The translations under genes and the position numbers were made by a program. A model generated the notes under the pieces. That model worked only from the letters and a program-made list of their open reading frames with translations, ran no database searches and had not been told where the DNA came from. Shown piece after piece: positions 5,831 to 58,695 of a stretch of DNA of 64,000 bases (its first letter is position 1; the number at the start of each line of letters is the position of its first letter). The stretch is from Hyunsoonleella aquatilis (GTDB lineage: Bacteria > Bacteroidota > Bacteroidia > Flavobacteriales > Flavobacteriaceae). The DNA is taken from positions 186,001 to 250,000 of the forward strand of contig NZ_JACNMF010000003.1 of NCBI RefSeq assembly GCF_014270105.1, given 5' to 3'.

Positions 5831-5875
5831 CAGGACAGCGCAGGATAGTCTATTGCGCTATATTTAATAAATTTA
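5831..5875 (+). promoter_or_regulatory. Regulon promoter P1 (paired CAGGAY boxes plus -7 box)
   Basis: CAGGAC at 5831 and CAGGAT at 5841 are 10 bp apart. A -7-like TAAATTTA begins at 5868, exactly 27 bp after the second box starts. The start codon of the next gene is 53 bp beyond the -7 box. This is the clearest paired example of the architecture shared by eleven promoters in the window. Confidence 0.78.
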
Positions 5876-5920
5876 CATGCTATTTAATTAAAAATCAGCA
5901 AATTAAATATTAATACTGCT

Positions 5921-7903
5921 ATGAAAAAAATTACTTTTAAATCCATCTTATTTTTAGTTTTAGCGTTATGCTCAATGAGTATAACAGCGCAAGGCGTACT
6001 CCCTTCTAGTGACACTTTCAGATTGAGAAATGTGGAAACAGGGTTATTTTTAACCGATGCAGGTGCGAGCGCACAACCTGTTACCATGACGAATTTAGAT
6101 GAAGACGATATAAGTACCCATTGGACGTTTATAGAAAGTGGGGCATTTTATAATATAGATAATAAGGATGGCAGTGCTGGGATATTGCGTGCTCCAGGAA
6201 TGGGTGGTCCAGGTGGGCCTTATGTAGTTTTAAGTACTGGTACAACAACAAGTTCTGGCGATAAAATATGGACGATAGAACATAACGCAACCGATGATAC
6301 TTATAGATTTCAATCTGGCACAAGTAGTAGATACATGTATCACGAGCTAGATGGAACCGTAACCCATATTCCAGTTGCTGCAACAGACGACAGAAGCAAT
6401 TGGGAACTCGTTCCTTATGTACAAGATGAGGTAGAGCCAGCTCCAGATGAAGATACAAATCCAGATTTATCCTGTCCATCCTCAGATGAATTTAGAAATG
6501 CTACAAGAACATCATCAGATTTACTAAACCCAGTTAATGTAGGCACTATTGATGATCGTACTTGTTATGCAGATTACTCAGAATTTGATCTTTATGGAAA
6601 AACTTGGGGCGTTTATAATATTACAGATGGTTCAAATCATTTGGATACAAATGGTTTGCAGCCTAGAATAGAACGTTCCTTACCTAGATCCCAAGAAACA
6701 GGTGTTGGGAGTTACGCAAGGTTTACAGGAACATTTAGGATTTTAGAAGTAGGTGAAACAGGTAATTCTAATACAGAAGGTACCTATATAGCGCAAGCCA
6801 AAGGAAAGCATGATTTAAATCTTGAACCGGGGGGATCTCCAGATCCGGCAATTTGTTTGTTTTTGGCTAAGCCTGTTATGGGCACAGGAATAAACGCTGG
6901 TAAACAAGTGGCATTTGATATTTATGCCGAGCGTATCACAGTACGTGGTGGAGAAGGCCCTGATAGGGAAGAAGAATTCATAGTTACTGTAGATAAAGAT
7001 GAGGAAATTGACTTTGTATTAGATGTAGGTTTCGCAGAAGATCCAACCGATCCTACCAAGAAAATCCACTATTGTAATGCTTCATTTAATGGAATCGAAG
7101 AAAATTGGAATATTCCAAACCCTGAAGCAGGACTAGAATCCGGTATTAGATACGGCGTATATAGAGTTAGAGGTGGTAGAGCACAAACGAGATGGGCCAA
7201 TACAACGTACCAGAAGGTAGAAGTTGTGGATTCAGGAAATGCTCCGGATGGTATTTATAGATTCAAAAATCTAGCTACAGGCAAGTATTTAAGGGATGCA
7301 GGTGATGGTTCAATTATAGCAAGTGATTCTGGTGTGGGTTCAGACAAAGAATGGCAATTTGTAGCGGTTCCAGGTACTAGTTATTATAATATTGATAGCC
7401 AGGGCCCCAGAAAAATTATAAGACATACAGGTGCTTTTCAGTTGGTTGGCACCAATATTTCAGCACCAAATGGTACTAATGATAAGTTGTGGGATGTTAT
7501 TCTTAACGGAGATGGGAGCTATAGTTTTGAAGCCATTGCTAAGAATGGAAGATTGTTATACCATGATGTAGACAATTCTATGGTAATTTCCACCAATACA
7601 GATGACAGAAGTAAATGGATTTTAGAATCTACAACTTTAAGTAGTTCTGGTCCAGAATTAAAAACCTCTTCAATAAAAATATACCCTAATCCAGCGAACG
7701 ACAGGTTTACAATTGCATTTAAAAACATAAGCAATATTGAGGGTGTAGAAATTTATAGCATTTTAGGAAAACGCGTTTATCAAAATGAGTTCAATGGAAG
7801 TGATTTGGTGGTTGAAAGCGCTAATTTTAAAGCAGGTGTTTACTTAGTAAAAGCTCTGGCAGATGATAATAAAGTGTATCATACAAAACTGGTTATTGAA
7901 TAG
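5921..7903 (+). CDS. Secreted putative beta-jelly-roll polysaccharide lyase flanked by two ricin-like trefoils, T9SS
   Basis: This 660-residue protein has a signal peptide (about 1-23), a ricin-like trefoil (about 27-165), a central domain (about 180-430), a second trefoil (about 445-580) and a T9SS sorting domain (about 590-660). The central domain starts at a CPSSDEF motif and ends with a [12 protein letters not shown] strand. It has the length and strand pattern of jelly-roll lyases such as PL7, and the context makes PL28 (ulvan lyase) the leading guess. I cannot confirm the family by eye. The trefoils are closely similar to those of the two preceding proteins, which points to a common binding target. 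The gene is monocistronic: it has its own promoter P1 and a strong terminator after it. Confidence 0.55.
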
Positions 7904-7932
7904 AATAAAATTAGAGCTATAAGAAGTTATAG

Positions 7933-7968
7933 AAAAGCCAGAAACAAATTTGTTTCTGGCTTTTTTTA
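7933..7968 (+). terminator. Rho-independent terminator after the trefoil/lyase gene
   Basis: A perfect inverted repeat (arms AAAAGCCAGAAACAAA and its complement, almost no loop) spans 7933-7964 and runs into a T-rich tract. It lies 30 bases after the stop codon and separates that gene from promoter P2. Confidence 0.85.
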
Positions 7969-7977
7969 TTTTGTAAA

Positions 7978-8022
7978 CAGGACAAAACAGGATGGTTTAT
8001 AAAGGGTATCTTTTTAAATTTC
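7978..8022 (+). promoter_or_regulatory. Regulon promoter P2
   Basis: CAGGAC at 7978, CAGGAT at 7988 (10 bp apart) and TAAATTTC at 8015 (27 bp after the second box) form the shared architecture. The ATG of the Tat-exported enzyme is 30 bp after the -7 box start. Confidence 0.78.
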
Positions 8023-8044
8023 ATGAAGCATAAAAATATACTAA

Positions 8045-9958
8045 ATGAAACGACGCAACTTTATACAGTTATCTACACTAGCAGGTGCTGGTTTATCATT
8101 GCCAATGGCAGGATTACTAAATGCCTGTGAAAGCCATCCAGAACACTCTTTAGAATTTAAAAACCTAATCACAAGTTTGTTAAAAGATTGGAGTGATGGC
8201 ATGTTAAAAGTACAAATTAACAATCCGTCAAATTTAGAGGAACATGGTGCTTTAGGTTGCCCTTCGTGTTCCCATATTCACGGGCGATGTATGGATGCTG
8301 TTTATCCTTTTCTGTTTATGGCGGACAAAACTGGCGATGAAAAGTATATAGAAGGTGCTAAATTGGTAATGCTTTGGGCAGAAAATAATGTCTCGCAGGA
8401 AGATGGCTCATGGACCGTTATCAAAAATCCAAAATCATGGAAAGGCATTACCGTGTTTGGAGCCATCGCGTTAGCAGAAGCTCTGCATTACCATGGTCAT
8501 GTTTTAGACGAAGCAACACGTAAGGCGTGGACAGAACGATTAGATAAAGCTGGACAATACATTTATGATACATTTACAATAGACTTTACTAATATTAACT
8601 ATCCAGGAACAGCAGTTTACGGGCTTAATTTGATAGGCAATGTTTTAAATAGAGATGATTTTAAAGCCAAGGGTAAAACATTAGCTTCTCAAGTAAAAGC
8701 CTATTTTACACCAAACGAAGGCTTGTTATTTGGAGAGTGCAAAAAAAGTTCCAGCAAATTAAGCGAAAAAGGGTTGCATGGCGTAGATTTAGGATATAAT
8801 GTAGAGGAAACCTTAAATAGCTTGGTCATGTATGCGCTTAAGGAAAAGGATGATGAACTTTTACAAATCTTAACTAAATCTTTAAATAGTCATTTAGAAT
8901 TTATGTTACCAGACGGTGCTTGGGATAACAGTTGGGGTAACCGCATGTACAAGTGGAGTTATTGGGGAAGTAGAACTTGTGATGGGAGCCAACCAGCATT
9001 TGGAATGATGGCACATATAAATCCTGCATTTGGAACAGCGGCCGTAAAAAATACAGAATTATTGCAACGATGTACAGCAGACGGTTTAATTCATGGAGGC
9101 CCTGGTTTTATCGAAGCTGAAATTCCTCCCTGCGTACACCATACGTTTACACATGCTAAACCTTTGGCCGCATTGTTAGACCATTGGGATCATTTGCCAG
9201 AAATTAATAAAAATTCGGCATTACCCAGAACAACAGCAGACGGTGTAAAACATTTTAAAGATTTAGATGTGTTTTTGTTTGCAAGAGGAGATTGGAGAGG
9301 AACTGTAAGTGCTTATGATGCAGAATACCATTATAAAGATGACTATCGTCAAGCTTCAGGTGCCGCTATAGGCGTTTTATATCATAATAGAGTTGGTTTG
9401 TTATGTGCCGCCAGTATGGCGCAATATTATTTAGTAGAGAAAAACAATCAGCAACCGCAACCGGGTAAGGATATTTGTTTAACACCCCGTATTGAAACGT
9501 TTAAGGATGATGTCTGGTTCACTAACTTATACGATTTACCTGCAACTGTGACTTCAAAAGATGAAAACGGAACTATAGAGTTGATGGCAGATGTAAAACT
9601 TAAAAACGGTGATAGAAAGACAGTTGAAGGGACTGCTTCAAACTTTGATATTATTTATAAAAGTAATGCAGATCAAACAAATATCCTTGTAAAAACAGAT
9701 GAGAAAATTACAGCACCAACAGCATTTGTTTTGCCCATAGTTTCTCCAAACAATGAAGCGGTAACCCATATCAGCGAAACTGAAATTACGATTCAAAAGC
9801 CTGAAGGATTAGTAACAATTAAAGCCAACGCACCAATTAAAATGAAAGAAATTGAAGGTGAAAGAACCTTTAATATGGTCCCGGGGGTAGAGGCTTTACC
9901 GTTTGAAATCTTTTTTGAAGAAACAAATGAGTTAGAAATAACACTATTAGTAAGTTAA
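8045..9958 (+). CDS. Tat-exported lipoprotein, probable (alpha/alpha)6-toroid polysaccharide lyase or hydrolase
   Basis: This 637-residue protein begins with a twin-arginine motif (KRRNFIQL) and a lipobox ending at Cys28 (LLNAC), so it is probably folded before export and lipid-anchored. Residues about 40-390 are helix-rich with aromatic repeats typical of an (alpha/alpha)6 toroid. They include a striking Cys/His cluster near residue 75 (CPSC followed by HGRC) and a conserved-looking NYPGTAVYG stretch. The C-terminal 230 residues look like a beta-sandwich. This layout resembles heparinase II/III-type lyases, but no named family is recognised with confidence. The gene has its own promoter (P2) and is convergent with the AraC gene, with one base between their stops. 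In a rhamnose/uronate PUL a lyase role is plausible. Confidence 0.5.
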   Translation: MKRRNFIQLSTLAGAGLSLPMAGLLNACESHPEHSLEFKNLITSLLKDWSDGMLKVQINNPSNLEEHGALGCPSCSHIHGRCMDAVYPFLFMADKTGDEKYIEGAKLVMLWAENNVSQEDGSWTVIKNPKSWKGITVFGAIALAEALHYHGHVLDEATRKAWTERLDKAGQYIYDTFTIDFTNINYPGTAVYGLNLIGNVLNRDDFKAKGKTLASQVKAYFTPNEGLLFGECKKSSSKLSEKGLHGVDLGYNVEETLNSLVMYALKEKDDELLQILTKSLNSHLEFMLPDGAWDNSWGNRMYKWSYWGSRTCDGSQPAFGMMAHINPAFGTAAVKNTELLQRCTADGLIHGGPGFIEAEIPPCVHHTFTHAKPLAALLDHWDHLPEINKNSALPRTTADGVKHFKDLDVFLFARGDWRGTVSAYDAEYHYKDDYRQASGAAIGVLYHNRVGLLCAASMAQYYLVEKNNQQPQPGKDICLTPRIETFKDDVWFTNLYDLPATVTSKDENGTIELMADVKLKNGDRKTVEGTASNFDIIYKSNADQTNILVKTDEKITAPTAFVLPIVSPNNEAVTHISETEITIQKPEGLVTIKANAPIKMKEIEGERTFNMVPGVEALPFEIFFEETNELEITLLVS

Positions 9959-9959
9959 C

Positions 9960-10835
9960 TTAATATACTGACTTTCTGAATTTTCCCGGAGAGATGCCTG
10001 TTTTGCGCTTAAAGAGCCTGTTGAAATAATAATCCGACTCAAAACCAAGTTCAAAGGCGATTTCCTTTTGGGATTTGGTGGTATTTAAAAGCAGTTCCTT
10101 AGATTTCTCAATTTTTAAAAGAAGATGGTACTGCAACGGGGAAAGCCCTGTTTGCTTCTTAAAGTCGATTCTGAATTTGGAATAGCTAACTCCCAAGCTA
10201 ACAGCTATTTTTGTCAAATCAATAGTATGATTCATATTATTGTACATTATGCTTTTGGCTTTGGACACCATGGAGTTAACGCTTTCAATATTATTGCCTC
10301 CGCTTTTAATGTTGTATAAACCTGCCATGAGCTGCATGCAGATACCAGAAGCTACCCGTTGATACCCATAAGCCTCCTCATCAAATAGTTTGAAAAGCGA
10401 ATTAAAATGATTTAAAATAAAAGGCTTGTTGCATTTGGAGATAACAGGTGCACTCGAATTAAAAAAGCCATTTGATAGAAGCTGAGACGCGACCTGTCCA
10501 GAAAAGCCGACCCATCTTTCTGTCCAACCCACACTTTTTTTAGGCTTATAGCGATGCCATACCCCTGGGAACAACAAAAACACATCACCGTCGCTTACCT
10601 TAATCTTTCCAGTAGATTTACTTTCAAAAACGCCTTCGCCCTTGGTAATGAGTACCACGTGAAATTCATTTAAAACGCGACCCTTGTCCCAAGTAAAAAT
10701 GTATTGATCTGGATGATCTTTTGAGGGGTATTCCGAGTGTTTTTCAATAACATTTCGTCCTAAATTATTGATGTAAAATCCCCAACTTTTATCATTATCA
10801 GTAACTATTTGATATTTTCGGTATCTATTTTTCAT
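9960..10835 (-). CDS. AraC-family transcriptional regulator with cupin-like sensor domain
   Basis: This 291-residue protein has an N-terminal cupin-like effector domain (about 20-150, with FPGVWHRYKP at its end) and a C-terminal AraC DNA-binding domain (about 190-288). The DNA-binding domain has two helix-turn-helix units: LTKIAVSLGVSYSKF and KEIAFELGFESDYYFNRLF. No signal peptide is present, so it is cytoplasmic. It is divergent from the large GH78 operon and is the only transcription regulator in the window; no HTCS or ECF sigma/anti-sigma pair is visible. AraC DNA-binding domains contact two major grooves about 10 bp apart, which matches the paired boxes found at eleven promoters, so it is the best local candidate for their activator. 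Its own promoter lacks the paired boxes. The ligand is probably rhamnose or a derivative (inference). Confidence 0.85.
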   Translation of the reverse strand: MKNRYRKYQIVTDNDKSWGFYINNLGRNVIEKHSEYPSKDHPDQYIFTWDKGRVLNEFHVVLITKGEGVFESKSTGKIKVSDGDVFLLFPGVWHRYKPKKSVGWTERWVGFSGQVASQLLSNGFFNSSAPVISKCNKPFILNHFNSLFKLFDEEAYGYQRVASGICMQLMAGLYNIKSGGNNIESVNSMVSKAKSIMYNNMNHTIDLTKIAVSLGVSYSKFRIDFKKQTGLSPLQYHLLLKIEKSKELLLNTTKSQKEIAFELGFESDYYFNRLFKRKTGISPGKFRKSVY

Positions 10836-10931
10836 ATCATTTTGTGCAACTAATATATCAATTTGTTAATTGTTTTTGATAAGAAAATAAAAGAAATTTA
10901 CATCATCTAGATTAGAATAATTGTAGGCATA

Positions 10932-10976
10932 CAGGTTTCAGCATGATGCATTTGTAAAAGTTTTTTTCTAATTTAT
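10932..10976 (+). promoter_or_regulatory. Regulon promoter P3 (degenerate boxes)
   Basis: CAGGTT at 10932 and CATGAT at 10942 are 10 bp apart, and TAATTTAT starts at 10969, 27 bp after the second box. The hexamers are weaker than in other copies but the spacing is exact. It lies in the AraC/GH78 divergent region and drives the 11010-23865 operon. Confidence 0.6.
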
Positions 10977-11009
10977 AGATCACACTAACAAAACTAAACT
11001 TCCTAAAAA

Positions 11010-14000
11010 ATGAAAATTACACCTATCACCACTAGGTTTTCATCACTTGTAATAATTATTGCATTTTTTTCATTGGTGTCGTGCAAGCCTTCTCCAATTA
11101 CTATTGAAGAATTGAAGTGCGAATACCTTACTAATCCTTTAGGAATTGATAATTTGAATCCTAGATTTAGTTGGATTATGGTTGACGCTGAGAAATCCCG
11201 AGGGCAAAAGCAAACCGCTTACCAAGTTTTAGTCGCTAGTAGTTTAGAGCAATTAAATACTGATGTAGGAGACGTGTGGGATTCTGGTAAAATAAAGTCA
11301 AACCAATCGATAAATAATCGTTACCAAGGAAAATCTTTAGAATCTTCAAAACACTATTTCTGGAAGGTGAAAATTTGGGACACTTCTGGTTTGGAATCCC
11401 GTTGGAGCGAGGTGGCCAATTTTTCAATGGGCTTATTGAACCCAGAAGATTGGAAAGGAGAATGGATTTATAAAGAAGATCAAAATAAAAAAGACCACAA
11501 TTGGTATAGAAAAAATGTGTCGTTAGATGAAGCACCGCAATCAGCCTATATTCATGTGGCATCTTTTGGGTATCATGAATTGTACGTGAATGGTAACAAA
11601 GTTGTTGATGGCGTTATGAATCCCGTAAATTCCTTTTTCAAAAAGCGCTTACCATATCTAACCTATGATATAAAAGACTATTTAGAAGATGGGGATAATG
11701 TAATAGGCATTTGGCACGCCGCCGGCTGGGCAAGATGGGGACGCGTAAAAGATTATTTCGATCCGCCTTTTGTATTTAAAGCTCAGGCTAATATTGATAT
11801 GGGTGAAGGCACTATTACATTAGTTTCAGACGCTTCATGGAAATGTAAAAAAAGCTACAGTTCTTATCATAGTTCTTGGGATATATTGGATTTTGGTGGT
11901 GAAATTATTGACGAACGTTTACGTGAAGACGATTGGAATACCGCTGAGTATGATGACAGTAATTGGGCAAATGCTGTTGTTTTTGATGAGGCAGAAATGC
12001 AGGATGTTGATGTGGCCGATATTAATTTAGGTCCAAAAGGAGCAATTAGAGCACCAAGTACTGACGCTAATCCGCCCACAAGTAAAATTACAGCGACCTT
12101 AAGTTCGCAAATGGTAGAGCCCCAAGTAAAATTTAAAGAAGTAACACCTATTGATGTTACCAAAAACGAGGAAGGCCATTATGTGATTGATATGGGTGAA
12201 AATTACACTGGCTATTTCGAAATGAACCTGTTTAATGGTAAAGCAGGTGATACCGTTACCTTTGAAATTGCTGATCATAAAGAGGTTTCTACATCTTGGG
12301 AACAGCGCAGTAAATATATTTATGATGAAACCGGAATGGGTCATTTTACCAATAGATTTAATCTTGCAGGAGGGCGTTATGTAACCGTTTATGGTATTAA
12401 TTATAAACCCGAATTAAAAGATATTAAAGGTTATGTTATTACCAACAATCGTAAACAAATTAGTCAATTTGAAAGTTCAAGTGAGTTGTTAAACAAGATT
12501 TATCAAGTAAATCTAAATACCTATATCGCCAATACCATAGATGGTATTTTGGTAGATTGCCCTCATCGTGAACGCCGTGGTTGGGGAGAAGTTACGGTAG
12601 CGGCTATGTACGGAGACGCACTACCTAATTTTGAAAGTGGCGCTTACATGATGCAATATGCACAATTTATGCAAGATGCTCAGGCAGATGATGGTAAAAT
12701 GCGTGCCGTTATTAATGGTGACGATTTTGAGTTTTTAATGTGGATGGCCAACAGCCCAATTACTATTTGGGAAACCTACCGAATGTTGGGCGACAAGCAA
12801 CTATTGGAAAATCATTATCCAACATTAAAAAAATGGATGCAGTGGTTGTATGAACATTCTAATTATGATACCCAAGATGCCTTGAAAATAGGTGAACGCG
12901 GTACGTTGGAATTCCCTGGTTTAGGTGATTGGTGTACCCCAAGAGGTAATTTTTGGACGTCGAGTAATTCTCCAGAATCGGAACATTTCAATAATTGTGT
13001 CTATGCTTTTATGTTAGAATCGGCTTTGGAAATTGCAAAAACCCTCAATAAGGAGGACGATGTAAAACTGTTTTCAGACCGTTTAGAAGTACAACGAAAC
13101 GCTACGCATAAAAAGATATATGATGAGCAAACTGGTAAATATGGCGAAGGACACCAGGTTAATCAAGCATTTGCGTTGCTCTCTGGCGTAACTCCCGAAT
13201 CTGAAAAACAAAAGGTTTATGATAACTTGGTAGATCAAGTGCTATATAAATTTCCTTACTACGATACAGGTAGTTCTGGGCAGGCACTTTACACGCGTTA
13301 TTTTATAGAGCATGGGGAGCGTATGGATTTAATTTATGAATTGTTAAAAGATAAACGCCACCCGAGTTATGGGTATTTTTTAGAGCAAGGAAAAACCGTG
13401 TGGCCAGAACGTTGGTCAGCAATCGGGAACAGTCAAATACACACTTGCTATACTGGCATTGGCGGGTATTTTATTAAAGGTTTTGCAGGTGTCAGACCAG
13501 ACCCGGAACATCCGGGGATGCAACAATTTGTAGTGAAACCTGCTCCTGTTGGTGATTTAACCTATGTAAATGCAAGTTATCAATCGCCTTACGGTGAGGT
13601 TGTTTCAAATTGGAAAATTACTGATGAAACAGCAACGTTTCATATTGAAATTCCTGTAAACACTTCTGCTAAGATTTATATTCCAGCAAATGAAAAAGAA
13701 TCTGTTTTTGAAGGTGAAATTCATGCTGAAAAGTCCGATGGTATAAGATATATTAATTCTGAGAAAAGCGATGCAGTTGGTAATTATATCATTTTTGAAG
13801 TTGCATCAGGTGTGTATAATTTTGAAGTTTCTGAATTACCAAAAGTAACCTATCCAGAGCCTTTGAATATACCTGATAATTTAGCATTAATAGGTCGAAT
13901 GAATGCGTCTTCAATGACTATCGATTCTGAGAAATTACCGCTTTTTGAGGCCTTTAGGGCAAACGATAAAAACCTAGAGACGCACTGGAAAGCAAACACA

Positions 14001-14267
14001 AAATTTAAAGAATGGCTAGAAATAGAATGGTTTAAACAGCAGACTTTTAATAATATAGTTATTCAGGAAGAAGGTGACAATATTTTGAGTTACAAAATTC
14101 AATATTTAGAAAATGGTAATTGGAAGGATGTAGCTAGTAATTCTAGTTTAGGCTCAAATAAGAGTCATGAATTTGATGCTGTAACTTCTACAAAATGTAG
14201 AATATATATAAACAGCTCTAAGGATAAGCCAGCCATTTCAGAATTTAAAATCTTTCATTCAAAATGA
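11010..14267 (+). CDS. GH78 alpha-L-rhamnosidase lipoprotein with C-terminal F5/8-type domain
   Basis: This 1085-residue protein has a lipobox at Cys25 (SLVSC) and the GH78 layout: an Fn3-like N-terminal domain (about 35-140), a jelly-roll domain (about 150-330), a further beta domain, an (alpha/alpha)6 catalytic domain (about 480-830) and a C-terminal beta domain. A discoidin/F5_8-type module (about 960-1085) follows. The catalytic-region motif is D516-CPHRE-RRGWGE527 and the proposed base is in VWPERW (Glu800). The metal/acid-region motif is one residue shorter than the usual GW-x-GD. It should remove terminal alpha-L-rhamnose in the periplasm. It is a close paralogue of the gene at 19209, and first gene of the operon under P3. 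Confidence 0.88.
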   Translation: MKITPITTRFSSLVIIIAFFSLVSCKPSPITIEELKCEYLTNPLGIDNLNPRFSWIMVDAEKSRGQKQTAYQVLVASSLEQLNTDVGDVWDSGKIKSNQSINNRYQGKSLESSKHYFWKVKIWDTSGLESRWSEVANFSMGLLNPEDWKGEWIYKEDQNKKDHNWYRKNVSLDEAPQSAYIHVASFGYHELYVNGNKVVDGVMNPVNSFFKKRLPYLTYDIKDYLEDGDNVIGIWHAAGWARWGRVKDYFDPPFVFKAQANIDMGEGTITLVSDASWKCKKSYSSYHSSWDILDFGGEIIDERLREDDWNTAEYDDSNWANAVVFDEAEMQDVDVADINLGPKGAIRAPSTDANPPTSKITATLSSQMVEPQVKFKEVTPIDVTKNEEGHYVIDMGENYTGYFEMNLFNGKAGDTVTFEIADHKEVSTSWEQRSKYIYDETGMGHFTNRFNLAGGRYVTVYGINYKPELKDIKGYVITNNRKQISQFESSSELLNKIYQVNLNTYIANTIDGILVDCPHRERRGWGEVTVAAMYGDALPNFESGAYMMQYAQFMQDAQADDGKMRAVINGDDFEFLMWMANSPITIWETYRMLGDKQLLENHYPTLKKWMQWLYEHSNYDTQDALKIGERGTLEFPGLGDWCTPRGNFWTSSNSPESEHFNNCVYAFMLESALEIAKTLNKEDDVKLFSDRLEVQRNATHKKIYDEQTGKYGEGHQVNQAFALLSGVTPESEKQKVYDNLVDQVLYKFPYYDTGSSGQALYTRYFIEHGERMDLIYELLKDKRHPSYGYFLEQGKTVWPERWSAIGNSQIHTCYTGIGGYFIKGFAGVRPDPEHPGMQQFVVKPAPVGDLTYVNASYQSPYGEVVSNWKITDETATFHIEIPVNTSAKIYIPANEKESVFEGEIHAEKSDGIRYINSEKSDAVGNYIIFEVASGVYNFEVSELPKVTYPEPLNIPDNLALIGRMNASSMTIDSEKLPLFEAFRANDKNLETHWKANTKFKEWLEIEWFKQQTFNNIVIQEEGDNILSYKIQYLENGNWKDVASNSSLGSNKSHEFDAVTSTKCRIYINSSKDKPAISEFKIFHSK

Positions 14268-14291
14268 AATTGAAAGTGTTAATACCTTGAT

Positions 14292-24065: not shown

Positions 24066-24110
24066 CATGACATTACGGGATGATTAAAAAGCATATTAGA
24101 GTTAATTTTA
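24066..24110 (+). promoter_or_regulatory. Regulon promoter P4
   Basis: CATGAC at 24066 and CGGGAT at 24076 are 10 bp apart. TAATTTTA starts at 24103, 27 bp after the second box. The leader to the first ATG is long (92 bp from the -7 box start). It should drive the five-gene 24195-33821 operon. Confidence 0.62.
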
Positions 24111-33850: not shown

Positions 33851-33895
33851 CAGGATATTACAGGATGTTAATTCTATCAAAAAGAATTAACTTTG
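33851..33895 (+). promoter_or_regulatory. Regulon promoter P5 (two perfect CAGGAT boxes)
   Basis: CAGGAT occurs at 33851 and again at 33861, and a perfect -7 box TAACTTTG starts at 33888, 27 bp after the second. The ATG of the GH39-like gene is 29 bp from the -7 box start. This is the cleanest copy of the array. Confidence 0.85.
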
Positions 33896-36696: not shown

Positions 36697-36741
36697 CCCG
36701 AGAGTACAGGATAAACTTTTTAACAGAGCCTAATATTTTTA
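36697..36741 (+). promoter_or_regulatory. Regulon promoter P6
   Basis: CAGGAT at 36707 (within GAGAGTACAGGATA) is preceded 10 bp upstream by a poor half-box (CCCGAG). TATTTTTA starts at 36734, 27 bp after the main box. It now drives the sulfatase remnant and, behind it, RhaT, a sulfatase and the enolase-superfamily gene. Confidence 0.68.
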
Positions 36742-40908: not shown

Positions 40909-40953
40909 CGTGAGAGTACAGGATATTTCTTAAAGAACACTTCACTACTTTCA
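40909..40953 (+). promoter_or_regulatory. Regulon promoter P7
   Basis: CAGGAT at 40919 sits in GAGAGTACAGGATA, the same 14-mer as P6, with a weak upstream half-box (CGTGAG at 40909). TACTTTCA starts at 40946, 27 bp after the main box. It drives the GH78-sulfatase-DUF1080 operon. Confidence 0.72.
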
Positions 40954-45449: not shown

Positions 45450-45459
45450 TTTTTAAGTG

Positions 45460-48093: not shown

Positions 48094-48114
48094 AAACCAA
48101 ACTAACTTTTGAAA

Positions 48115-49536: not shown

Positions 49537-49652
49537 ACTTTTAAGATAGGCTCTTGTTTGTCAGAAACATATAAGGCTTCTATGTGAAGAAAAACCACCA
49601 TAATTTAGTCGGAACGATTAAATGAGCTATTTATCGAATTTTTGTTGCAAGG

Positions 49653-49697
49653 CAGTATAGTTCAGGATATCTTTTAGTGAATTCTGGTTTAATTTCA
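49653..49697 (+). promoter_or_regulatory. Regulon promoter P8
   Basis: CAGTAT at 49653 and CAGGAT at 49663 are 10 bp apart, and TAATTTCA starts at 49690, 27 bp after the second box. An in-frame GTG at 49677 lies inside this promoter and cannot be the start. The ATG at 49713 is 23 bp after the -7 box start, implying a short leader. Confidence 0.75.
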
Positions 49698-49712
49698 GCA
49701 AAAATTATAGCT

Positions 49713-52673: not shown

Positions 52674-52693
52674 TAACTAGTCTTATACAAAAG

Positions 52694-52736
52694 AAAAAAA
52701 GGCCATGATAGCGTTATACAATCATGGCCTTTTTTA
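52694..52736. terminator. Bidirectional terminator between convergent genes
   Basis: AAAAAAAGGCCATGAT at 52694-52709 pairs with ATCATGGCCTTTTTT at 52721-52736 around an 11-base loop. The A run and T run serve as U-tracts for the minus and plus transcripts respectively. Confidence 0.88.
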
Positions 52737-52781
52737 TTTTTGTTAATAATTCAATATGAGCTAAGCTCAATCTTTATGAAA

Positions 52782-53660
52782 TTATTTTTTCTTCTTTTTG
52801 GAAGGCTCTGGATGACGCTCAATGTAACTTTCAAGAAGCGCTTTTACTACTTCCATACCGCCAGCCTCCAAGCCGTCGTTCACGTTAGCACCAGAAATCC
52901 AATATAATACCATACCTGCATCAGAACAGTCCCATTTTCCTTTTTGGAAATTAACGATATTGTCAACTTCAGCGAGGTTCCCGATAGTCCAAATTAATCG
53001 TATGCGCGGGTCGGCATGATTTTTTGCCCAATCCCATTTTTCGTGGTCTAACTTTAAATTGATATTCTGGTCAGGGATACGTACTTCTTCAATACCAAAA
53101 TCCAATATTTGTTGCCAAGTGTAAAAATCGCCTGCGTTATCGTTAGCAGGATGGTGGGTCACTACTTTAACAAATTTGTGTTTTTCCTTTGGCGTTTTTT
53201 GCAATGCCATACCAATAATATCTGGTTCCCCGGCTTCAATAATCCATAAAGGGTCGTCGGCAGTAGAGGCATTTATGGCCCAACACAAATCGTCAATGGT
53301 AGCTTCTTTTTGCCACATGGCATCATAAAATGTTAAATTTCCAAATCCTCCCCAGCGTCGTGCGATCATATCACAGGCTACCTGCATTAAATGGTGTCGT
53401 TCTTTTTCGGCCTGTTTAGAAATGCGATCATCCCTTACCAAATCACAACTATGCGAATAATGTACCAATCTGTCCTCTAAGCCACTGGCGCGCAATAAGG
53501 CAATAGTTACTGCAGTACCTCCCAAATCATCTGGGTCCGGAGAATTGCCATCCGCAACAACGGCTATTCTTCCTTTGGGTGGGTTTATAGTTTGGCCCCA
53601 AACCGGGCTACCAAAAGAAACTAACATAAAAAGTAATAATAATGATGATGTCCTATTCAT
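52782..53660 (-). CDS. Secreted nucleoside-hydrolase-like protein
   Basis: This 292-residue protein has a signal peptide (about 1-22, ending VWG). A Rossmann-like domain begins with RIAVVADGNSPDPDDLGGTA. The Asp cluster (DPDD) resembles the Ca2+/ribose-binding loop of nucleoside hydrolases and of DUF1593-type proteins. Other strands are LWIIEAGEPDIIGMAL and RIRLIWTIGN. The tail is Lys-rich (SKKKKK). It is transcribed away from SusC from its own regulon promoter (P11), so it is co-regulated with the glycan enzymes. The activity on a carbohydrate, if any, is unknown: an N-ribohydrolase, a glycosidase with the same fold or a binding role are all possible. Confidence 0.6.
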   Translation of the reverse strand: MNRTSSLLLLFMLVSFGSPVWGQTINPPKGRIAVVADGNSPDPDDLGGTAVTIALLRASGLEDRLVHYSHSCDLVRDDRISKQAEKERHHLMQVACDMIARRWGGFGNLTFYDAMWQKEATIDDLCWAINASTADDPLWIIEAGEPDIIGMALQKTPKEKHKFVKVVTHHPANDNAGDFYTWQQILDFGIEEVRIPDQNINLKLDHEKWDWAKNHADPRIRLIWTIGNLAEVDNIVNFQKGKWDCSDAGMVLYWISGANVNDGLEAGGMEVVKALLESYIERHPEPSKKKKK

Positions 53661-53721
53661 TTTTTAACATATAAAGATTTATATTTTTGATATCCATAAA
53701 GCATTGGCACTTCATAAGTTA

Positions 53722-53766
53722 TAAAACTAAGCCATACCGTCAATTATTTTGACCTGTGGTGTCCTG
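53722..53766 (-). promoter_or_regulatory. Regulon promoter P11 (minus strand)
   Basis: Read on the minus strand, CAGGAC starts at 53766 and CAGGTC at 53756, 10 bp apart. TAGTTTTA starts at 53729, 27 bp after the second box. The start codon is 69 bp from the -7 box start. It faces away from P9 in the same intergenic region. Confidence 0.72.
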
Positions 53767-53811
53767 TTTCTGGTAAAATATGTTTTAAATGATGATACAG
53801 CACAGCCCAGA

Positions 53812-53856
53812 ACGGGAAGTGCAGGATACGTGTTAAAATTTTAAGAAATACTTTAG
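53812..53856 (+). promoter_or_regulatory. Regulon promoter P9 (SusC/SusD operon)
   Basis: CAGGAT at 53822 has a weak upstream half-box (ACGGGA at 53812). TACTTTAG starts at 53849, 27 bp after the main box. The susC-like ATG is 44 bp from the -7 box start. Confidence 0.68.
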
Positions 53857-53892
53857 AAAACGAAAAATTAACTAATTTAAACTTCAAATTTT

Positions 53893-56800
53893 ATGAAATT
53901 AAAAACTAAACTAAATGAGACGCTCTATCTTAGAAAGGCTAAGTTGAGCATCATTTTGTTCTTTGCGTTTGCGGCAATGTCCTTTGCCCAAACCGTATCC
54001 GGAACTGTTTCTGCGGATGGCCAGCCCCTCCCGGGAGCAACCGTTTTGGTAAAAGGAACAACTACAGGAACTAGTACTGACTTTGACGGTAATTACACCA
54101 TTAATGCCGAAGCATCCAACACTCTTGTTTTTTCTTATGTAGGTTATTCTACAAAGGAGGTGCCAGTTGGTAATCAAACCGTAGTTAACGTAACACTAGA
54201 GCAGGACAATGCTTTGGATGAAGTGGTAGTAATTGGCTATGGTACGCAACGAAAGTCGGATTTAACTGGATCTGTATCTTCGGTGAGTGCTGAGGATATT
54301 ACTGCAGTTCCGGTTTCTAGGGTGGATCAAGCGCTACAAGGTAGAGCTTCTGGTGTTCAGGTAACACAGGTTAATGGTGCGCCAGGTGCGGGTACTGTAA
54401 TTAGAGTAAGAGGTGGTAATTCCATCACAGGAAGTAACGAGCCACTTTGGGTTATTGATGGTATTGTAGTAGGGACTAACTTCAACCTGAATAATATAAA
54501 CAGTAATGACATTAAATCTATTGAAATCTTAAAAGATGCTTCGTCTATTGCTATTTATGGGTCTAGAGGTGCCAATGGTGTAGTGTTAGTGACTACAAAA
54601 AATGGTAAAGGCGCAGGAACAGGAAAGCCAGAGGTATCAGTAAACCTTTATACAAGTTTACAAAGTGTTCCAGAACTACCAGATATGCTTTCTCAGAGGG
54701 AGCAAATAGCATATACTAACGAAAGTGCAAGATTTAGAGGGGTTACAGAGCCATTTCCAAACGATCCATCAACCTATCCTGACAACGATTGGTTTGATCT
54801 TTTAATGGATACCGCACCTATTTATAGTGCAGATGTCTCTATTTCCGGATCAACAGAAAACCTTAATTACTACAATTCTTTGAGCTATTTTAATCAAGAA
54901 GGTATTATTAAAAGTTCTGGTATTGAAAAGTTTATTTTTAGGTCTAATTTAGACTATACATTAAGTGAAAAGATAAAGGCTGGCTTTAGAATAAATTACT
55001 CTAGAATTAACAGGCAAAATGGTGTAGTTGGCTTTGGAAGTGCTTTTGGCACGCTTCCCACACAGCCTATTTTTAATGACGATGGAACCTATAATGGATT
55101 TAATGAAGTTGTAGGGGCGCCATTTACTAATCCGATAGCTGCCCTTGAGCAAAATACAAATGAAACACTGAGTAATAATTTGTTGGCAACTGCTTATTTA
55201 GAGTATAGTCCAATAGAAAATTTAATTATCCGTTCAACATTTAGCCCAGAAATCAATAATTCTAAGCAAAATAGATTTTTTTCCAGTCAAGCACCAAGTA
55301 ATCTTGCAATAGATGTGTTTAATGGTGGGTTTGCTAGTGTTGAAACAATATCTAGTATTGGTTGGAATAATGAAAATACGATTCAATACCAATTCGATGT
55401 AAATGAAGATCATAGTATAACGGCACTTGCCGGTGCTTCTTTTCAAAAGGTAGAGACGGAGACAGCTTTTGCGGAAGCATTAGGTATTTTTAGTGATGCC
55501 GCTGGGTTTAACAATTTAGGTTTTTCTGATCCCGCTAGGTCTGTAATCAGAAGTGATTATGATGGGTTCCAAATCGCCTCTTTCTTCGGAAGGATAAACT
55601 ATGCTTTTAAAGATAAATACCTGTTGACTTTAGTAGGCAGGTCAGATGGTAGTTCTCGTTTTGCTCCAGGTAACAAATATGAGTTTTATCCTTCTATAGC
55701 AGGTGCTTGGAAAATTTCAGAAGAGTCTTTTATGCAAAATCAGAATGTGTTCCAAGATTTGAAATTAAGAGCAAGTTGGGGTAAATCGGGAAACCAAGCC
55801 ATTGAAGCATACAGAACATTTGGTCTTCTAACAGAGGCAAATACAACTTTAGGAGGTAATGAATTAATAGGTTTAACGGTAGGTAGACCAGCCAACCCTA
55901 ATTTAAAGTGGGAAACCACAAGTTCTTATGATATTGCCTTAGAAGCATCCTTTTTTGGGGGTAAAGTGTTTACGGAGCTAAATTATTACTATAAGCAAAC
56001 AGATGACCTATTGTTAGATGTAACGATTCCTAGACAAACTGGTTTCACAAGTCAATTGCAAAATATTGGTTCTTTAGAAAATCAAGGGTGGGAATTACTT
56101 GTTAATTCTACTAATGTTAGTAACGCAAACTTTAGCTGGAGCTCTACGGTAACATTATCTGCTAATAGAAATAAGGTATTAGATTTAGGTGGGGCACAAT
56201 TTCAAGAAGTAGTAGTCGATGAAATTCTAGGGTCAGGTAATACACGTTTAATTGTTGGTCAACCTGTTCCTGTATATACAGGTGCTAGATATTTAGGAAC
56301 GTGGAAAAGTCAACAAGAAATTGATGATTCAGGATTTCTTGATAATGCCATTGTAGGAGGTGCAAGATTTGAAGACATAAGCGGGCCGAATGGGGTACCA
56401 GATGGTAGAATTTCGCAAGATGATTACGTGGTGTTAGGGGATCCCACGCCAGATTTAATTTTTGGATTTGAAAATAATTTCTCTTACAAGAATTGGGATT
56501 TATCCTTTTACTTTCAAGGGACTACAGGAAATGAAGTATTTAATTTAACCATGCGTAATAATTATTTTAACCGTGGTGAAACTACTAAATATGCTGATTT
56601 AGCAAACCGATGGATAGAAGGTGTTAATGAAACATCTGATATACCAAGAGCTGGACAAGATACTGTAACAGGTACACCTCCAAACTCCGAATACGTTGAA
56701 GATGGCTCGCATGTACGTCTTAAAACATTAAGATTAGCTTATAATGTGCCAACTAGTGACTGGGGATTAGATGGGATTAAAAATGCCACTATTTATTTTT

Positions 56801-56958
56801 CAGGAAATAATTTATTATTATTTTCAGATTTTAGGTTGATTGATCCAGAAGCTAGTAGATTTGGAAGAGACGGAATAGGTAATATAGCCCAAGGTTATCA
56901 TAATGGGTCATATCCAAACCCACGTGTTTTAACACTTGGCCTTAACTTAACATTTTAA
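53893..56958 (+). CDS. susC: SusC/RagA-type TonB-dependent outer-membrane receptor
   Basis: This 1021-residue protein has a signal peptide (about 1-32), a CarboxypepD_reg-like domain (about 34-110, GTVSADGQPLPGATVLVKG), a TonB-box region (ALDEVVVIGYGTQ), a plug (about 112-235) and a 22-strand beta-barrel ending in LNLTF. It imports oligosaccharides of the PUL glycan through the outer membrane with the SusD lid encoded 12 bases downstream. No N-terminal sigma-regulatory extension is present, so control is not by a FecR/ECF pair through this receptor. It is the only SusC in the window. The symbol denotes the family. Confidence 0.93.
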   Translation: MKLKTKLNETLYLRKAKLSIILFFAFAAMSFAQTVSGTVSADGQPLPGATVLVKGTTTGTSTDFDGNYTINAEASNTLVFSYVGYSTKEVPVGNQTVVNVTLEQDNALDEVVVIGYGTQRKSDLTGSVSSVSAEDITAVPVSRVDQALQGRASGVQVTQVNGAPGAGTVIRVRGGNSITGSNEPLWVIDGIVVGTNFNLNNINSNDIKSIEILKDASSIAIYGSRGANGVVLVTTKNGKGAGTGKPEVSVNLYTSLQSVPELPDMLSQREQIAYTNESARFRGVTEPFPNDPSTYPDNDWFDLLMDTAPIYSADVSISGSTENLNYYNSLSYFNQEGIIKSSGIEKFIFRSNLDYTLSEKIKAGFRINYSRINRQNGVVGFGSAFGTLPTQPIFNDDGTYNGFNEVVGAPFTNPIAALEQNTNETLSNNLLATAYLEYSPIENLIIRSTFSPEINNSKQNRFFSSQAPSNLAIDVFNGGFASVETISSIGWNNENTIQYQFDVNEDHSITALAGASFQKVETETAFAEALGIFSDAAGFNNLGFSDPARSVIRSDYDGFQIASFFGRINYAFKDKYLLTLVGRSDGSSRFAPGNKYEFYPSIAGAWKISEESFMQNQNVFQDLKLRASWGKSGNQAIEAYRTFGLLTEANTTLGGNELIGLTVGRPANPNLKWETTSSYDIALEASFFGGKVFTELNYYYKQTDDLLLDVTIPRQTGFTSQLQNIGSLENQGWELLVNSTNVSNANFSWSSTVTLSANRNKVLDLGGAQFQEVVVDEILGSGNTRLIVGQPVPVYTGARYLGTWKSQQEIDDSGFLDNAIVGGARFEDISGPNGVPDGRISQDDYVVLGDPTPDLIFGFENNFSYKNWDLSFYFQGTTGNEVFNLTMRNNYFNRGETTKYADLANRWIEGVNETSDIPRAGQDTVTGTPPNSEYVEDGSHVRLKTLRLAYNVPTSDWGLDGIKNATIYFSGNNLLLFSDFRLIDPEASRFGRDGIGNIAQGYHNGSYPNPRVLTLGLNLTF

Positions 56959-56970
56959 AAAAAATAAATT

Positions 56971-58578
56971 ATGAAAACAAAACGCATATTTTTATACGTC
57001 TTCATTATTTTCTCATGTTTTGCCTGTGAGAAATTTTTGGAAGAAGAACCAAGAGCACTTATCTCTCCAGAAACATTTTTAACATCTGCAACGGAGGCTG
57101 AGGCATTTAGAACAGGGTACTATGCCATTTTAAAGAATAATTCCATTTACGGACAAGTTGGATTAGATGTATTTTACGACAACGGAGCCGACATTATAGA
57201 ACCTAATAGGCAAGCAGGTTTCTTTGAGCCTATGGGTAATTATTCTCTGACGGAAGCATCTGCGGACGTATCTACTCAAAAAATGAGTGTGTCGGATACT
57301 TGGAAAGACCTATACAGGGTTATCTTAAATACAAATATTTTAATTAATAGAATTGCAGATAATGAAGCTATTTTGCAAGAAGCCAGAACAGACTTTATTG
57401 CGGATGCAAGGTTTGTTAGAGCTTTATGTTATTGGCATATTACAAATCTTTGGGGTGATGCGCCTTATTATACAGAGGTTCTTACGCTTGAAGAGATTAG
57501 TTCTTTGGGAAGAACAGATGAAGCCATAATAATAGAAGGTGTTTTAGAGGATTTAGAATTTGCACAAGCAAACCTTAAAGATTCTTATACTGGTGATGAT
57601 GCAGGAAGAGCTTCAAAATGGGCAGCTGCCTTGATTGAGGCAAAAATTCTTATGCAACAGCAAAAATGGCAAGAAGGTCTGGATAAATGTCTAGAGATTA
57701 TTAATCAATCGCCACATTCTTTATTGCCAACATATGCTGAAGTGTTTGACCCTAATAATGAATACAACGCTGAAATTATTTGGTCTTTAGATTTTGCCAA
57801 AGACATTATAGGGCAGTTCGAACTTGGTGTTCAAGATGCTGATGGGAACTTACCTAATTTTGCAAGAGATTCCAATGGAAACTGGAGACCAAGTATGTTT
57901 AATCCACGTTTAAGAGATGAGCCGCAAAATGCTGAAGATTTAGAACCTTTAAAGGATGCTTTGGCTGCCAATGGAGAGTCGTTTAATGGTACTGGACTTC
58001 AAATAGCATCAAAAGATTTTGCTGAGAAGTTCCCAATGAATGATTTAAGAAGACCTCTAAATGTTAACGACATGTACGAAGGTATTCAATTGAATCATAC
58101 GTATATGCCTAAGTTTATGAATTTGGACTTGGCAACGTCACCACGTTTCAACCATTCTGACAACAGACTGGTGTTCCGTATGGCTGATGTGCATTTGATG
58201 GCCGCTGAATGTGAGAATGAGCGTCCTGGTGGAAATCCAGATACTGCCTTCGAGTATATTAGGCCAATTAGAGAGCGTGCTTATGCTACCGTTGCAGAAG
58301 CCGAAGAAATACTTGGTTTAACTCAACAACAGTTCAGAGAAGCTATTTATGACGAGCGCAAATGGGAGTTAGCCGGAGAAGCTTGGAGAAGATATGACCT
58401 GATAAGATGGGGTATTTTATTTGATGTTGTTGAAGATCTAGAATACCGCTTCTGGACACCTGCGGCGAATATAGAACCTTGGCATGTAAAATTGCCGATT
58501 CCTTTACAAGAAATCATAAGCAATCCAGCACTATTGGAATCAGATCCAACTAATAATGGATATCGATCAGGAAATTAA
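56971..58578 (+). CDS. susD: SusD/RagB-type surface glycan-binding lipoprotein
   Basis: This 535-residue lipoprotein has its lipidation Cys at 19 (CFAC), followed by an acidic stretch (EKFLEEEP) that fits surface export. The TPR-rich SusD fold includes RFVRALCYWHITNLWGDAPY and, near the C-terminus, the ERKWELAGEAWRRYDLIRWG signature of the family. It binds imported oligosaccharides as the lid of the SusC channel. It is co-transcribed with the SusC-like gene under P9 and followed by a terminator. Ligand specificity cannot be read from sequence. The symbol denotes the family. Confidence 0.93.
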   Translation: MKTKRIFLYVFIIFSCFACEKFLEEEPRALISPETFLTSATEAEAFRTGYYAILKNNSIYGQVGLDVFYDNGADIIEPNRQAGFFEPMGNYSLTEASADVSTQKMSVSDTWKDLYRVILNTNILINRIADNEAILQEARTDFIADARFVRALCYWHITNLWGDAPYYTEVLTLEEISSLGRTDEAIIIEGVLEDLEFAQANLKDSYTGDDAGRASKWAAALIEAKILMQQQKWQEGLDKCLEIINQSPHSLLPTYAEVFDPNNEYNAEIIWSLDFAKDIIGQFELGVQDADGNLPNFARDSNGNWRPSMFNPRLRDEPQNAEDLEPLKDALAANGESFNGTGLQIASKDFAEKFPMNDLRRPLNVNDMYEGIQLNHTYMPKFMNLDLATSPRFNHSDNRLVFRMADVHLMAAECENERPGGNPDTAFEYIRPIRERAYATVAEAEEILGLTQQQFREAIYDERKWELAGEAWRRYDLIRWGILFDVVEDLEYRFWTPAANIEPWHVKLPIPLQEIISNPALLESDPTNNGYRSGN

Positions 58579-58608
58579 TATTAAGTTAGTTTTTTAGTTG
58601 TTTAGTTG

Positions 58609-58642
58609 AAAAGGCCGAAGACGAAAGTTTTCGGTCTTTTTT
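58609..58642 (+). terminator. Terminator after the SusC/SusD operon
   Basis: AAAAGGCCGAA at 58609-58619 pairs (one G-U pair) with TTCGGTCTTTT at 58630-58640, followed by more T residues, 30 bases after the SusD stop. Confidence 0.8.
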
Positions 58643-58650
58643 ATGAAACA

Positions 58651-58695
58651 CATGAGAGTTCAGGATATGATTAATCCAAATTTGTATTAGATTAG
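58651..58695 (+). promoter_or_regulatory. Regulon promoter P10
   Basis: CATGAG at 58651 and CAGGAT at 58661 (within GAGAGTTCAGGATA) are 10 bp apart. TAGATTAG starts at 58688, 27 bp after the main box. The GH3 ATG is 32 bp from the -7 box start. Confidence 0.75.

Follow-up and report, generated by a model that had tools for sequence, protein, structure and literature searches.

What switches on the PUL genes of this 64-kb stretch of DNA (the window) together, and what reads the doubled sequence tag standing before so many of them? The first-pass annotation had listed eleven promoters in which paired CAGGAT-like hexamers precede a TAnnTT-type -7 box at an exact distance of 27 bp. Reading the sequence at each site bears this out in 11 of 11, with one correction: the positions printed for the sites mark the upstream hexamer and not the main one, which begins 10 bp downstream; TAnnTT thus starts 37 bp past the printed position and 27 bp past the second hexamer. 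The main hexamer is an exact CAGGAT at 8 of the 11 sites, with one mismatch at P3, one at P4 and two at P11; its partner, described as often weaker, indeed departs from CAGGAT by three bases at P6, three at P7 and four at P9.

Paired boxes and the 27-bp spacing

On the forward strand, the P1 operator CAGGACAGCGCAGGATAG (5831-5848; -7 box TAAATT, 5868-5873) lies upstream of a PL28 ulvan lyase gene (5921-7903) and has a third box, CATGAC, 10 bp further upstream. P2 (CAGGACAAAACAGGATGG, 7978-7995; TAAATT, 8015-8020) precedes a 637-aa gene (8045-9958) that gave no match in a Pfam search, and P3 (CAGGTTTCAGCATGATGC, 10932-10949; TAATTT, 10969-10974), the lowest scoring of the eleven, precedes a GH78 gene (11010-14267). 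P4 (CATGACATTACGGGATGA, 24066-24083; TAATTT, 24103-24108) stands before a PKD-domain gene (24195-25283), P5 (CAGGATATTACAGGATGT, 33851-33868; TAACTT, 33888-33893) before a GH39-like gene (33917-36475) and P7 (CGTGAGAGTACAGGATAT, 40909-40926; TACTTT, 40946-40951) before another GH78 gene (40987-43842); at P6 (CCCGAGAGTACAGGATAA, 36697-36714; TATTTT, 36734-36739), the ORF of RhaT (37038-38090) starts 298 bp downstream. P8 (CAGTATAGTTCAGGATAT, 49653-49670; TAATTT, 49690-49695) precedes a CBM6/CBM35 gene ending at 52673; the GTG start listed for it, at 49677, precedes the -7 box, and the true start must therefore lie after 49695. P9 (ACGGGAAGTGCAGGATAC, 53812-53829; TACTTT, 53849-53854) precedes a SusC-like gene (53893-56958) followed by SusD (56971-58578), and P10 (CATGAGAGTTCAGGATAT, 58651-58668; TAGATT, 58688-58693) a GH3 gene (58720-60882). 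P11, on the reverse strand (CAGGACACCACAGGTCAA, 53749-53766; TAGTTT, 53724-53729), faces a gene (52782-53660) without a match in Pfam or NCBIfam.

A matrix built from the eleven sites finds 11 matches in the window and none in each of 20 order-1 resamples, a comparison that is circular as the matrix comes from the same sites. Counted without it, 8 of 55 CAGGAY words in the window have TAnnTT at 27 bp, against a mean of 0.44 at other distances (Poisson 2.5e-8). In the held-out 116 kb of the same contig (C15) outside the window, the count is 16 of 120, with a mean of 1.37 and a maximum of 4 at other distances (Poisson 1.9e-12), and in 100 kb of control stretches it is 2 of 61 (mean 0.4, P 0.06). 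When the matrix ignores the -7 box, TAnnTT still lies at 27 bp in 95 of 129 operator hits (60 loci), compared with one at 26 bp and five at 28 bp; the next commonest distances, with several matches per site allowed, are 25 bp (14) and 5 bp (12). Of the 95 hits, 86 are followed on their own strand by an ORF start no more than 350 bp away, and the spacers of 111 operator promoters are all distinct.

The consensus is a direct repeat, CAGKAYAG-TA-CAGGAYAG, with a period of 10 bp. A palindrome reading was dropped after a hand check of the consensus, and the GntR-family palindrome NyGTNxACNy was not found in this direct repeat; nor does the 10-bp period agree with the 67/77-bp repeat distance of the SusR type. 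A partner repeat at 21 bp, sought upstream of 25 sites, showed no conservation there. Searching more generally for 8-mer tandem repeats of any sequence that have TAnnTT at 27 bp returned many hits that looked like chance, in the control stretches too, but also recovered the sites on contig C17, at C15:134664 and on contig C12.

Distribution and target genes

Across the genome, CAGGAT-N21-TAnnTT has 41 matches compared with 7 for the reversed pattern, and the stricter pair pattern CNNNNNANNNCAGGAYR-N20-TANNTT has 22 compared with 1; seven of these 22 are among the eleven window sites. The equal frequency at unrelated genes that had been named beforehand as counterevidence is not what the scan found: 20 of the 22 strict sites fall within one 188-kb stretch, C15:134.7-322.9 kb, one belongs to a second glycan cluster on contig C1 and one, on C12, stands upstream of a lone PL28 ulvan lyase gene. 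The concentration upstream of catabolic genes is supported, and the range of targets is wider than had been stated: besides PUL genes, the targets include central catabolism (rhamnose isomerase, FGGY kinase, aldolases, LldD, aldehyde dehydrogenase, LutAB) and a UxuA/KduI/UxaC operon, that is, L-rhamnose, lactate and uronate catabolism, and the operator recurs in other families. The sites define a rhamnose/ulvan regulon, more than a single PUL. Many of the ulvan genes share the tag, and it tracks one sugar-sensing regulator across relatives; the tag is therefore likely to control the entire rhamnose-eating programme.

The candidate regulator and its rivals

Judging from sequence, the likely binder of the operator is P0005, a GntR winged-helix protein with a LacI-type sugar domain, encoded outside the window at C15:307398-308471. 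The GntR domain (PF00392) is above cut-off in P0005-P0008, and the C-terminal sugar domain is predicted to have a LacI/PBP1 fold (Foldseek best E 2.6e-12, prob 1.00), an architecture that rests on prediction; Peripla_BP_3 exceeds the Pfam cut-off in three of four paralogs, P0005 itself staying below it (24.9 vs. 26.5 bits). This genome has four close paralogs, any of which might bind the operator.

Gene and operator co-occur: 43 of the 60 genomes that have a GntR ortholog (E<=1e-100) contain at least four strict sites, compared with 1 of 239 without an ortholog (genome table with 149 positive genomes), with a Fisher value of 8e-37 that overstates certainty, as genomes within a family are not independent. 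In a class-wide sample at the looser E<=1e-60, the counts are 8 of 33 vs. 0 of 352 (P 1.2e-9), and outside the family f1, 5 of 28 vs. 0 of 344 (P 1.7e-6). At the cut-off used for the family (E<=1e-100), the class-wide counts are only 4 of 7 vs. 4 of 378; the other four positives depend on relatives of 39-46% identity, and in one such genome, G635, the four hits did not look operator-like when judged by eye. There are exceptions on both sides: 17 of the 60 GntR-bearing genomes have fewer than four strict sites, close orthologs are lacking both in G231, which has four, and in six further genomes, which have three. Of 10 other genomes whose rha loci were retrieved, the loci having been chosen by their operator, 8 carry the ortholog no more than about 4 kb from the rha operon; in G110, a GntR fragment adjoins the operon and a full copy is 11 kb off, and in G115, the 20 kb fetched at the rha locus held no ortholog. 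Given this linkage, the same co-occurrence would be expected of any gene linked to rhamnose.

The window itself encodes an AraC-family protein (9960-10835, reverse strand; AraC_binding and HTH_18), whose gene sits inside the PUL; at the matrix threshold applied, this gene lacks an operator. Proteins of the AraC family make contact with two consecutive major grooves, all 12 genomes with an ortholog of at least 66% have at least four sites, and a 48% paralog adjoins the rha operon in G153. Such orthologs are, however, found in only 12 of 44 operator-rich genomes, and the motifs of the AraC-type RhaR in Bacteroides are direct repeats with a period of 21 and not 10 bp (PMC3870299, in the part available); with 32 of the 44 lacking it, we rejected this protein as the main regulator and find it very improbable that it binds the operator. 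The case is poorer still for a hybrid two-component system (HTCS) at C15:274731-278804, or its kin, which we rejected because 27 of the 44 operator-rich genomes, G132, G265, G070, G045, G268 and G212 among them, have no relative and only 17 have one. It carries an AraC-type DNA-binding domain, an operator lies directly past its gene at 278923, another HTCS adjoins the C1 cluster, and at least four sites are present in 17 of the 21 genomes that encode a relative at E<=1e-250; against this, the HTCS motifs of Bacteroides average a 21-bp period (PMC3878776, in part). An alternative (ECF) sigma factor, finally, could recognise CAGGAY and TAnnTT as the two elements of its promoter, and their exact distance does resemble a sigma promoter. 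Yet the usual ECF spacers are shorter than the 21 nt found here, and both the upstream repeat and the co-occurrence with GntR would be left without explanation. The second box is, moreover, of the sigma-A -7 type, TAnnTTTG (PMC9723704, in part), and we give a sigma factor next to no credence.

A GntR protein on direct repeats has precedents. Typical GntR operators are palindromes (PMC4494728, in part), and the direct repeats of NanR (TGGTATAW), NagQ (TGGTATT), FarR and the MocR-type GabR and TauR are a documented exception, similar to our case in combining a GntR winged helix with direct and not inverted repeats; in the MocR group, several proteins activate transcription (PMC4494728, PMC5320631, both in part). 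The sugar domain here is nevertheless of the LacI type and theirs of the FadR, HutC or aminotransferase types, and the 10-bp period is here combined with a -7 box 27 bp away, at tens of promoters over ~190 kb. The candidate shares its domain order, GntR and then LacI type, with Bacillus subtilis AraR, and the PDB sequence matches include 4egy, the DNA-binding domain of an "arabinose metabolism transcriptional repressor"; the sequence similarity to AraR is only remote, however, and AraR represses arabinose genes from palindromic operators. Among Bacteroides regulators, according to the parts of PMC3878776 and PMC3870299 available, RhaR likewise controls L-rhamnose catabolism but belongs to the AraC family, with a 21-bp period and a single target operon. 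In the former source, HTCS and SusR also use direct-repeat operators upstream of PUL operons but are membrane glycan sensors with repeats ~21 bp (HTCS) or 67/77 bp (SusR) apart, and FucR and ManR are GntR-family regulators of fucose or mannose catabolism, FucR having a single target operon (PMC3878776, in part). The literature searched, which covered few subscription papers, yielded no description of the operator or of a flavobacterial GntR rhamnose regulator.

Activation or repression at the -33 region

Our preferred reading, to which we assign a probability of about 63% as a whole, is that the paired boxes are a single tandem operator of 10-bp period, bound by the GntR/LacI-type regulator, which activates the rhamnose and ulvan genes upon sensing a sugar. 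Two winged-helix domains of the cytoplasmic protein would lie head-to-tail on the same DNA face, over the region that sigma-A would read as -33; on sensing L-rhamnose or an early catabolite, the protein would bring in RNA polymerase, or stabilise it, at the TAnnTT(TG) -7 box 27 bp downstream. Ulvan lyases, rhamnosidases, sulfatases, SusCD, RhaT, rhamnose catabolism, lactaldehyde/lactate oxidation and uronate catabolism would then be switched on jointly. We infer the direct binding, the identity of the inducer and the activating effect; the exact spacing and the overlap with -33 seem to favour activation. The -33 region is occupied by the main hexamer, and the operator has a fixed distance to the -7 box and one orientation, as in a class II activator-dependent sigma-A promoter. 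TTG appears at -33 in only 2 of the 111 operator promoters because the operator takes up these bases, and no clear TTG peak emerges there in 39 control promoters with TAnnTTTG from the same genome, a set too small to be informative; a replaced -33 contact is thus not demonstrable from sequence.

The literature searched says little on how marine Bacteroidota regulate the use of ulvan and other rhamnose-rich algal glycans, and generally credits the control of PULs to membrane sensors (HTCS, SusR, ECF systems). If our reading is true, one cytoplasmic sugar sensor commands ~27 promoters over ~190 kb and a gene on another contig, and the operator, which here pointed to the lone PL28 lyase, could help to predict rhamnose-glycan genes elsewhere. 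It would also allow the interplay of an activator with the unusual sigma-A promoter of Bacteroidota to be studied in a clean system.

Paralogs with another type of recognition helix suggest that tandem operators are a trait of the protein family, and they also bear on the direction of control. In 17 of 18 of these (the loci with an SRDT(V/I)(L/I)xA helix among 40 fetched), a tandem CTRGTAGG with a 10-bp period lies upstream of the paralog's own gene, compared with 0 of 360 shuffles, the word being derived from the same set. Its left end is 34-41 bp before TAnnTTTG in 15 of the 17 and 26 bp in 2, comparable to the CAGGAYAG operator (37 bp), and it points toward the gene in 7 and is reversed in 10. 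A contrast between "variable" CTRGTAGG spacing and rigid CAGGAYAG spacing had been considered as an argument for activation; in the recount, CTRGTAGG occupies nearly one place and chiefly the orientation differs, and the argument was therefore withdrawn and the odds shifted from activation toward repression.

The same GntR protein on the same operator could be a repressor that blocks RNA polymerase and is released when rhamnose is sensed. Repression is common among GntR and LacI-type regulators, and Zobellia is said, by the title of a report, to have a GntR repressor of alginate genes. The operators overlap the polymerase footprint, and the CTRGTAGG repeat of the sister subfamily, in nearly the same position, with a complete TAnnTTTG, before its own gene and in both orientations, is placed as the site of an autorepressor might be. 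A repressor has no need, however, of one exact distance and orientation, as seen in the 95 of 129 hits at precisely 27 bp and in promoters with 111 distinct spacers, and a complete TAnnTTTG is found in only 46 of the 111; we consider repression less likely than activation, though well ahead of the other regulators discussed.

A broader proposal, which we advance tentatively and with less than even odds, is that GntR/LacI-domain proteins form a Bacteroidota-wide class reading 10-bp direct repeats over the -33 of sigma-A promoters, with the recognition helix setting the word: SRDTVEKAY would read CAGGAYAG and SRDTVLMAF-like helices CTRGTAGG. The CAGGAYAG branch might then be a true activator that replaces the -33 contact at a rigid 27 bp, bringing polysaccharide loci, transport and monosaccharide catabolism under common control. 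Across 18 aligned relatives SRDTVE does not vary; these are 17 of the first 24 and L234, with L210 (a stop in its stretch), L221, L226, L230, L231, L233 and L236 left out.

Operator sequence and spacing

The arrangement that the first-pass annotation described for eleven promoters of the window (P1-P11), a pair of related hexamers with a 10-bp period and a TAnnTT box 27 bp after the second hexamer, was recovered in all eleven cases, except that the coordinates printed there belong to the upstream, usually weaker box and the main box starts 10 bp later. The spacing stands out even when the pair is disregarded and TAnnTT is simply counted at distances of 10-63 after each CAGGAY. In the window, 8 of 55 CAGGAY words have TAnnTT at 27 bp against a mean of 0.44 at other distances; in the 116 kb of contig C15 beyond the window, sequence outside the annotation's reading, the count is 16 of 120 (mean 1.37 at other distances; Poisson 1.9e-12), and in 100 kb of control stretches it is 2 of 61 (P 0.06). 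A matrix built from the 11 window sites found further strong sites over C15:153.8 to 322.8 kb. The logo from 25 sites, those 11 among them, reads CAnGAnAGTA-CAGGA(T/C)AG with little conservation upstream, and 111 operators with distinct spacers, picked by the matrix and by TAnnTT at 27 bp, give the consensus CAGKAYAGTACAGGAYAG; from both, we read the operator unit as CAGGAYAG repeated directly at a period of 10 bp. One operator-like site, at C15:183510 before a gene at 183598, has CAGGAT 27 bp before TAGTTT and its second box, CGGGAT, 10 bp downstream, not upstream.

Target genes

Across the 3.93-Mb H. aquatilis genome, the strict pair pattern occurs 22 times, compared with once for a reversed control, and the matches concentrate at PUL genes, as had been anticipated, and at further catabolic genes: 20 lie in C15:134.7-322.9 kb, and C1 and C12 have one each. 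By Pfam annotation, the window (C15:186001-250000 of genome G000) is an ulvan locus, encoding PL28 and PLH30-type lyase domains, GH78 and GH106 rhamnosidases, GH39 and GH3 glycosidases, sulfatases, SusC/SusD, RhaT and an AraC regulator. The C12 site was found by the pattern scan before its gene was annotated; its -7 box (TAATTTTG) stops 20 bp short of the start of a gene for a 311-aa PL28 ulvan lyase. The operator at C15:134664 heads an SDR-UxuA-KduI-DUF4861-UxaC-MFS gene row for uronate catabolism; that at C15:310053 precedes an aldolase-dehydrogenase fusion, L-rhamnose isomerase, FGGY kinase, aldolase, LldD and aldehyde dehydrogenase, and those at C15:322714 and C15:322819 precede LutA and LutB and a 464-aa gene without family match, respectively. 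Others stand before a sulfatase-GH78 fusion, GH106 genes, a sulfatase, a GFO/IDH/MocA oxidoreductase and BNR_4 lyase-like genes. The predicted target set is a rhamnose/ulvan regulon, from secreted lyases through to lactate oxidation; the earlier label of a PUL operator holds within the PUL but is too narrow, as targets extend to rhamnose, uronate and lactate catabolism.

Two window genes have no Pfam or NCBIfam match: that of P2 (8045-9958, 637 aa), whose promoter has near-identical counterparts, spacer included, in G145 (C5:340890) and G169 (C107:208990), and that of P11 (52782-53660, 292 aa), whose relative in G184 (217427-219442) has 671 aa and thus a different domain make-up. A second glycan cluster, C1:592966-613853, encodes a RhaT-like transporter, an L-fucose-dehydrogenase-like SDR, a fuconolactonase-like hydrolase, an HTCS and the GntR paralog P0008; its related sites, such as CATATTCGGCAGGATGG, also lie 27 bp from TAnnTT and differ in the upstream half.

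A GntR protein as candidate regulator

The candidate regulators in or near the cluster are the window AraC, an HTCS and GntR proteins with a periplasmic-binding-type domain. Among 299 family genomes, some are rich in the strict pattern and the rest stay close to background; 44 have at least 4 strict sites and are called operator-rich here. Twelve genomes have an AraC ortholog (at least 66% identity), all of them operator-rich, and 21 have an HTCS relative (E<=1e-250), 17 of them operator-rich; both proteins are unlikely as the operator's main reader, 32 and 27 of the 44 operator-rich genomes, respectively, having none. The GntR protein at C15:307398-308471 matches the distribution of the operator better than either: 43 of 60 genomes with an ortholog (E<=1e-100) are operator-rich, against 1 of 239 without. 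Seventeen carriers have fewer than 4 strict sites. G231 has 4 strict sites and a closest relative just 30% identical, and G246 has 3 and relatives 31-39% identical; five others, G019 among them, have 3 each and no close ortholog, and the four retested (G090, G101, G111 and G259) have no match at E<=1e-10. In 385 genomes sampled across the class, a relative at the looser E<=1e-60 is present in 33, including every one of the 8 that have at least 4 sites, and 5 of these 8 belong to families other than f1; at E<=1e-100, at least 4 sites occur in 4 of 7 carriers versus 4 of 378 non-carriers. The cut-offs differ by four genomes, with relatives 39-46% identical, and in one of these, G635, the hits are unlike operators.

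Linkage between the GntR gene and the rhamnose (rha) operon would by itself yield part of this association. At rha loci from 10 other genomes, selected by their operator, 8 have a GntR ortholog no more than about 4 kb from the operon; in G110, the operon is flanked by a fragment, with a full copy 11 kb off, and G115 has no ortholog in the 20 kb fetched there and one on its contig C11, a few kilobases from three operators. Using a matrix without the -7 box, we scanned 60 loci around GntR relatives from genera including Algibacter, Hyunsoonleella, Tamlana, Polaribacter, Arenibacter, Flavobacterium, Zobellia, Sinomicrobium, Salegentibacter, Echinicola and Rhodonellum. Among 129 operator matches, TAnnTT lies at 27 bp in 95, at 26 in 1 and at 28 in 5, the next peak being 25 bp with 14 (several matches per site counted); 48 of the 60 loci have a 27-bp operator, and 86 of the 95 have a same-strand ORF start within 350 bp downstream. 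Thirteen of the other 34 lack both an alternative -7 box close by and an ORF start. At four Flavobacterium loci (L204, L219, L220, L243), the site nearest the GntR gene is AAGGATAGTACAGGATAG with no TAnnTT at 27 bp, and the -7 box may be displaced by 1 bp.

In the AlphaFold2 model of the protein (mean pLDDT 88.5, pTM 0.70), the N-terminal part is a helical domain carrying a wing, and the remainder has Foldseek matches to LacI-family repressors; in an alignment of 18 relatives, the SRDTVE helix is invariant. Given the regulator's place at the rhamnose operon and its sugar-binding fold, the presumed inducer is L-rhamnose or an early product of its catabolism.

Mode of action and known regulators

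The exact distance, the single orientation and the position of the main box, 27 to 22 bp ahead of the -7 box, suggest that the operator is the site of an activator touching the polymerase where a -33 element would lie. Repression may be exerted from the same position, and a sister branch lends this some weight by placing its repeats similarly, ahead of complete TAnnTTTG boxes. There, GntR paralogs of another recognition-helix type have a CTRGTAGG tandem repeat with a 10-bp period 5' of their own gene in 17 of 18 cases, compared with 0 of 360 mononucleotide shuffles, a descriptive count since the word itself was derived from these loci; 7 repeats face the gene and 10 face away. Since their left end lies 34-41 bp before TAnnTTTG in 15 of 17 (26 bp in 2) and that of CAGGAYAG operators 37 bp, both branches place the repeat over the -33 region. 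Control promoters of H. aquatilis have no clear -33 TTG peak, and F. psychrophilum sigma-A motifs are, in the cited portion of the source, variations of TAnnTTTG (PMC9723704); with regard to the activator, we therefore only infer that the operator replaces a -33 element.

As far as the cited excerpts go, direct-repeat binding is a documented exception among GntR proteins (NanR, NagQ, FarR), and direct repeats are common in MocR-type members, several of which are activators (PMC4494728, PMC5320631). The 10-bp period of CAGGAYAG matches none of the systems in the corresponding excerpts on Bacteroides regulators, where rhamnose genes are under an AraC protein with a predicted 21-bp repeat period, and the repeats lie on average 21 bp apart in HTCS motifs and 67 or 77 bp apart in those of SusR (PMC3878776, PMC3870299). 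No description of the operator was found in the literature searched; we rate as new the operator plan and the unusually wide, position-locked promoter set, and a GntR/LacI-type sugar regulon as a known kind.

Just 5' of the GntR paralog gene on C17, at C17:61298, stands a tandem repeat of the CTRGTAGG kind, TAGTAGGG-TC-TAGTAGGT, whose word recurs 5' of that gene's relatives in other genomes. A GntR/LacI-type gene directly adjoins an HTCS gene in both clusters (C15:273505-278804 and C1:616077-621739), a pairing that may be functional.
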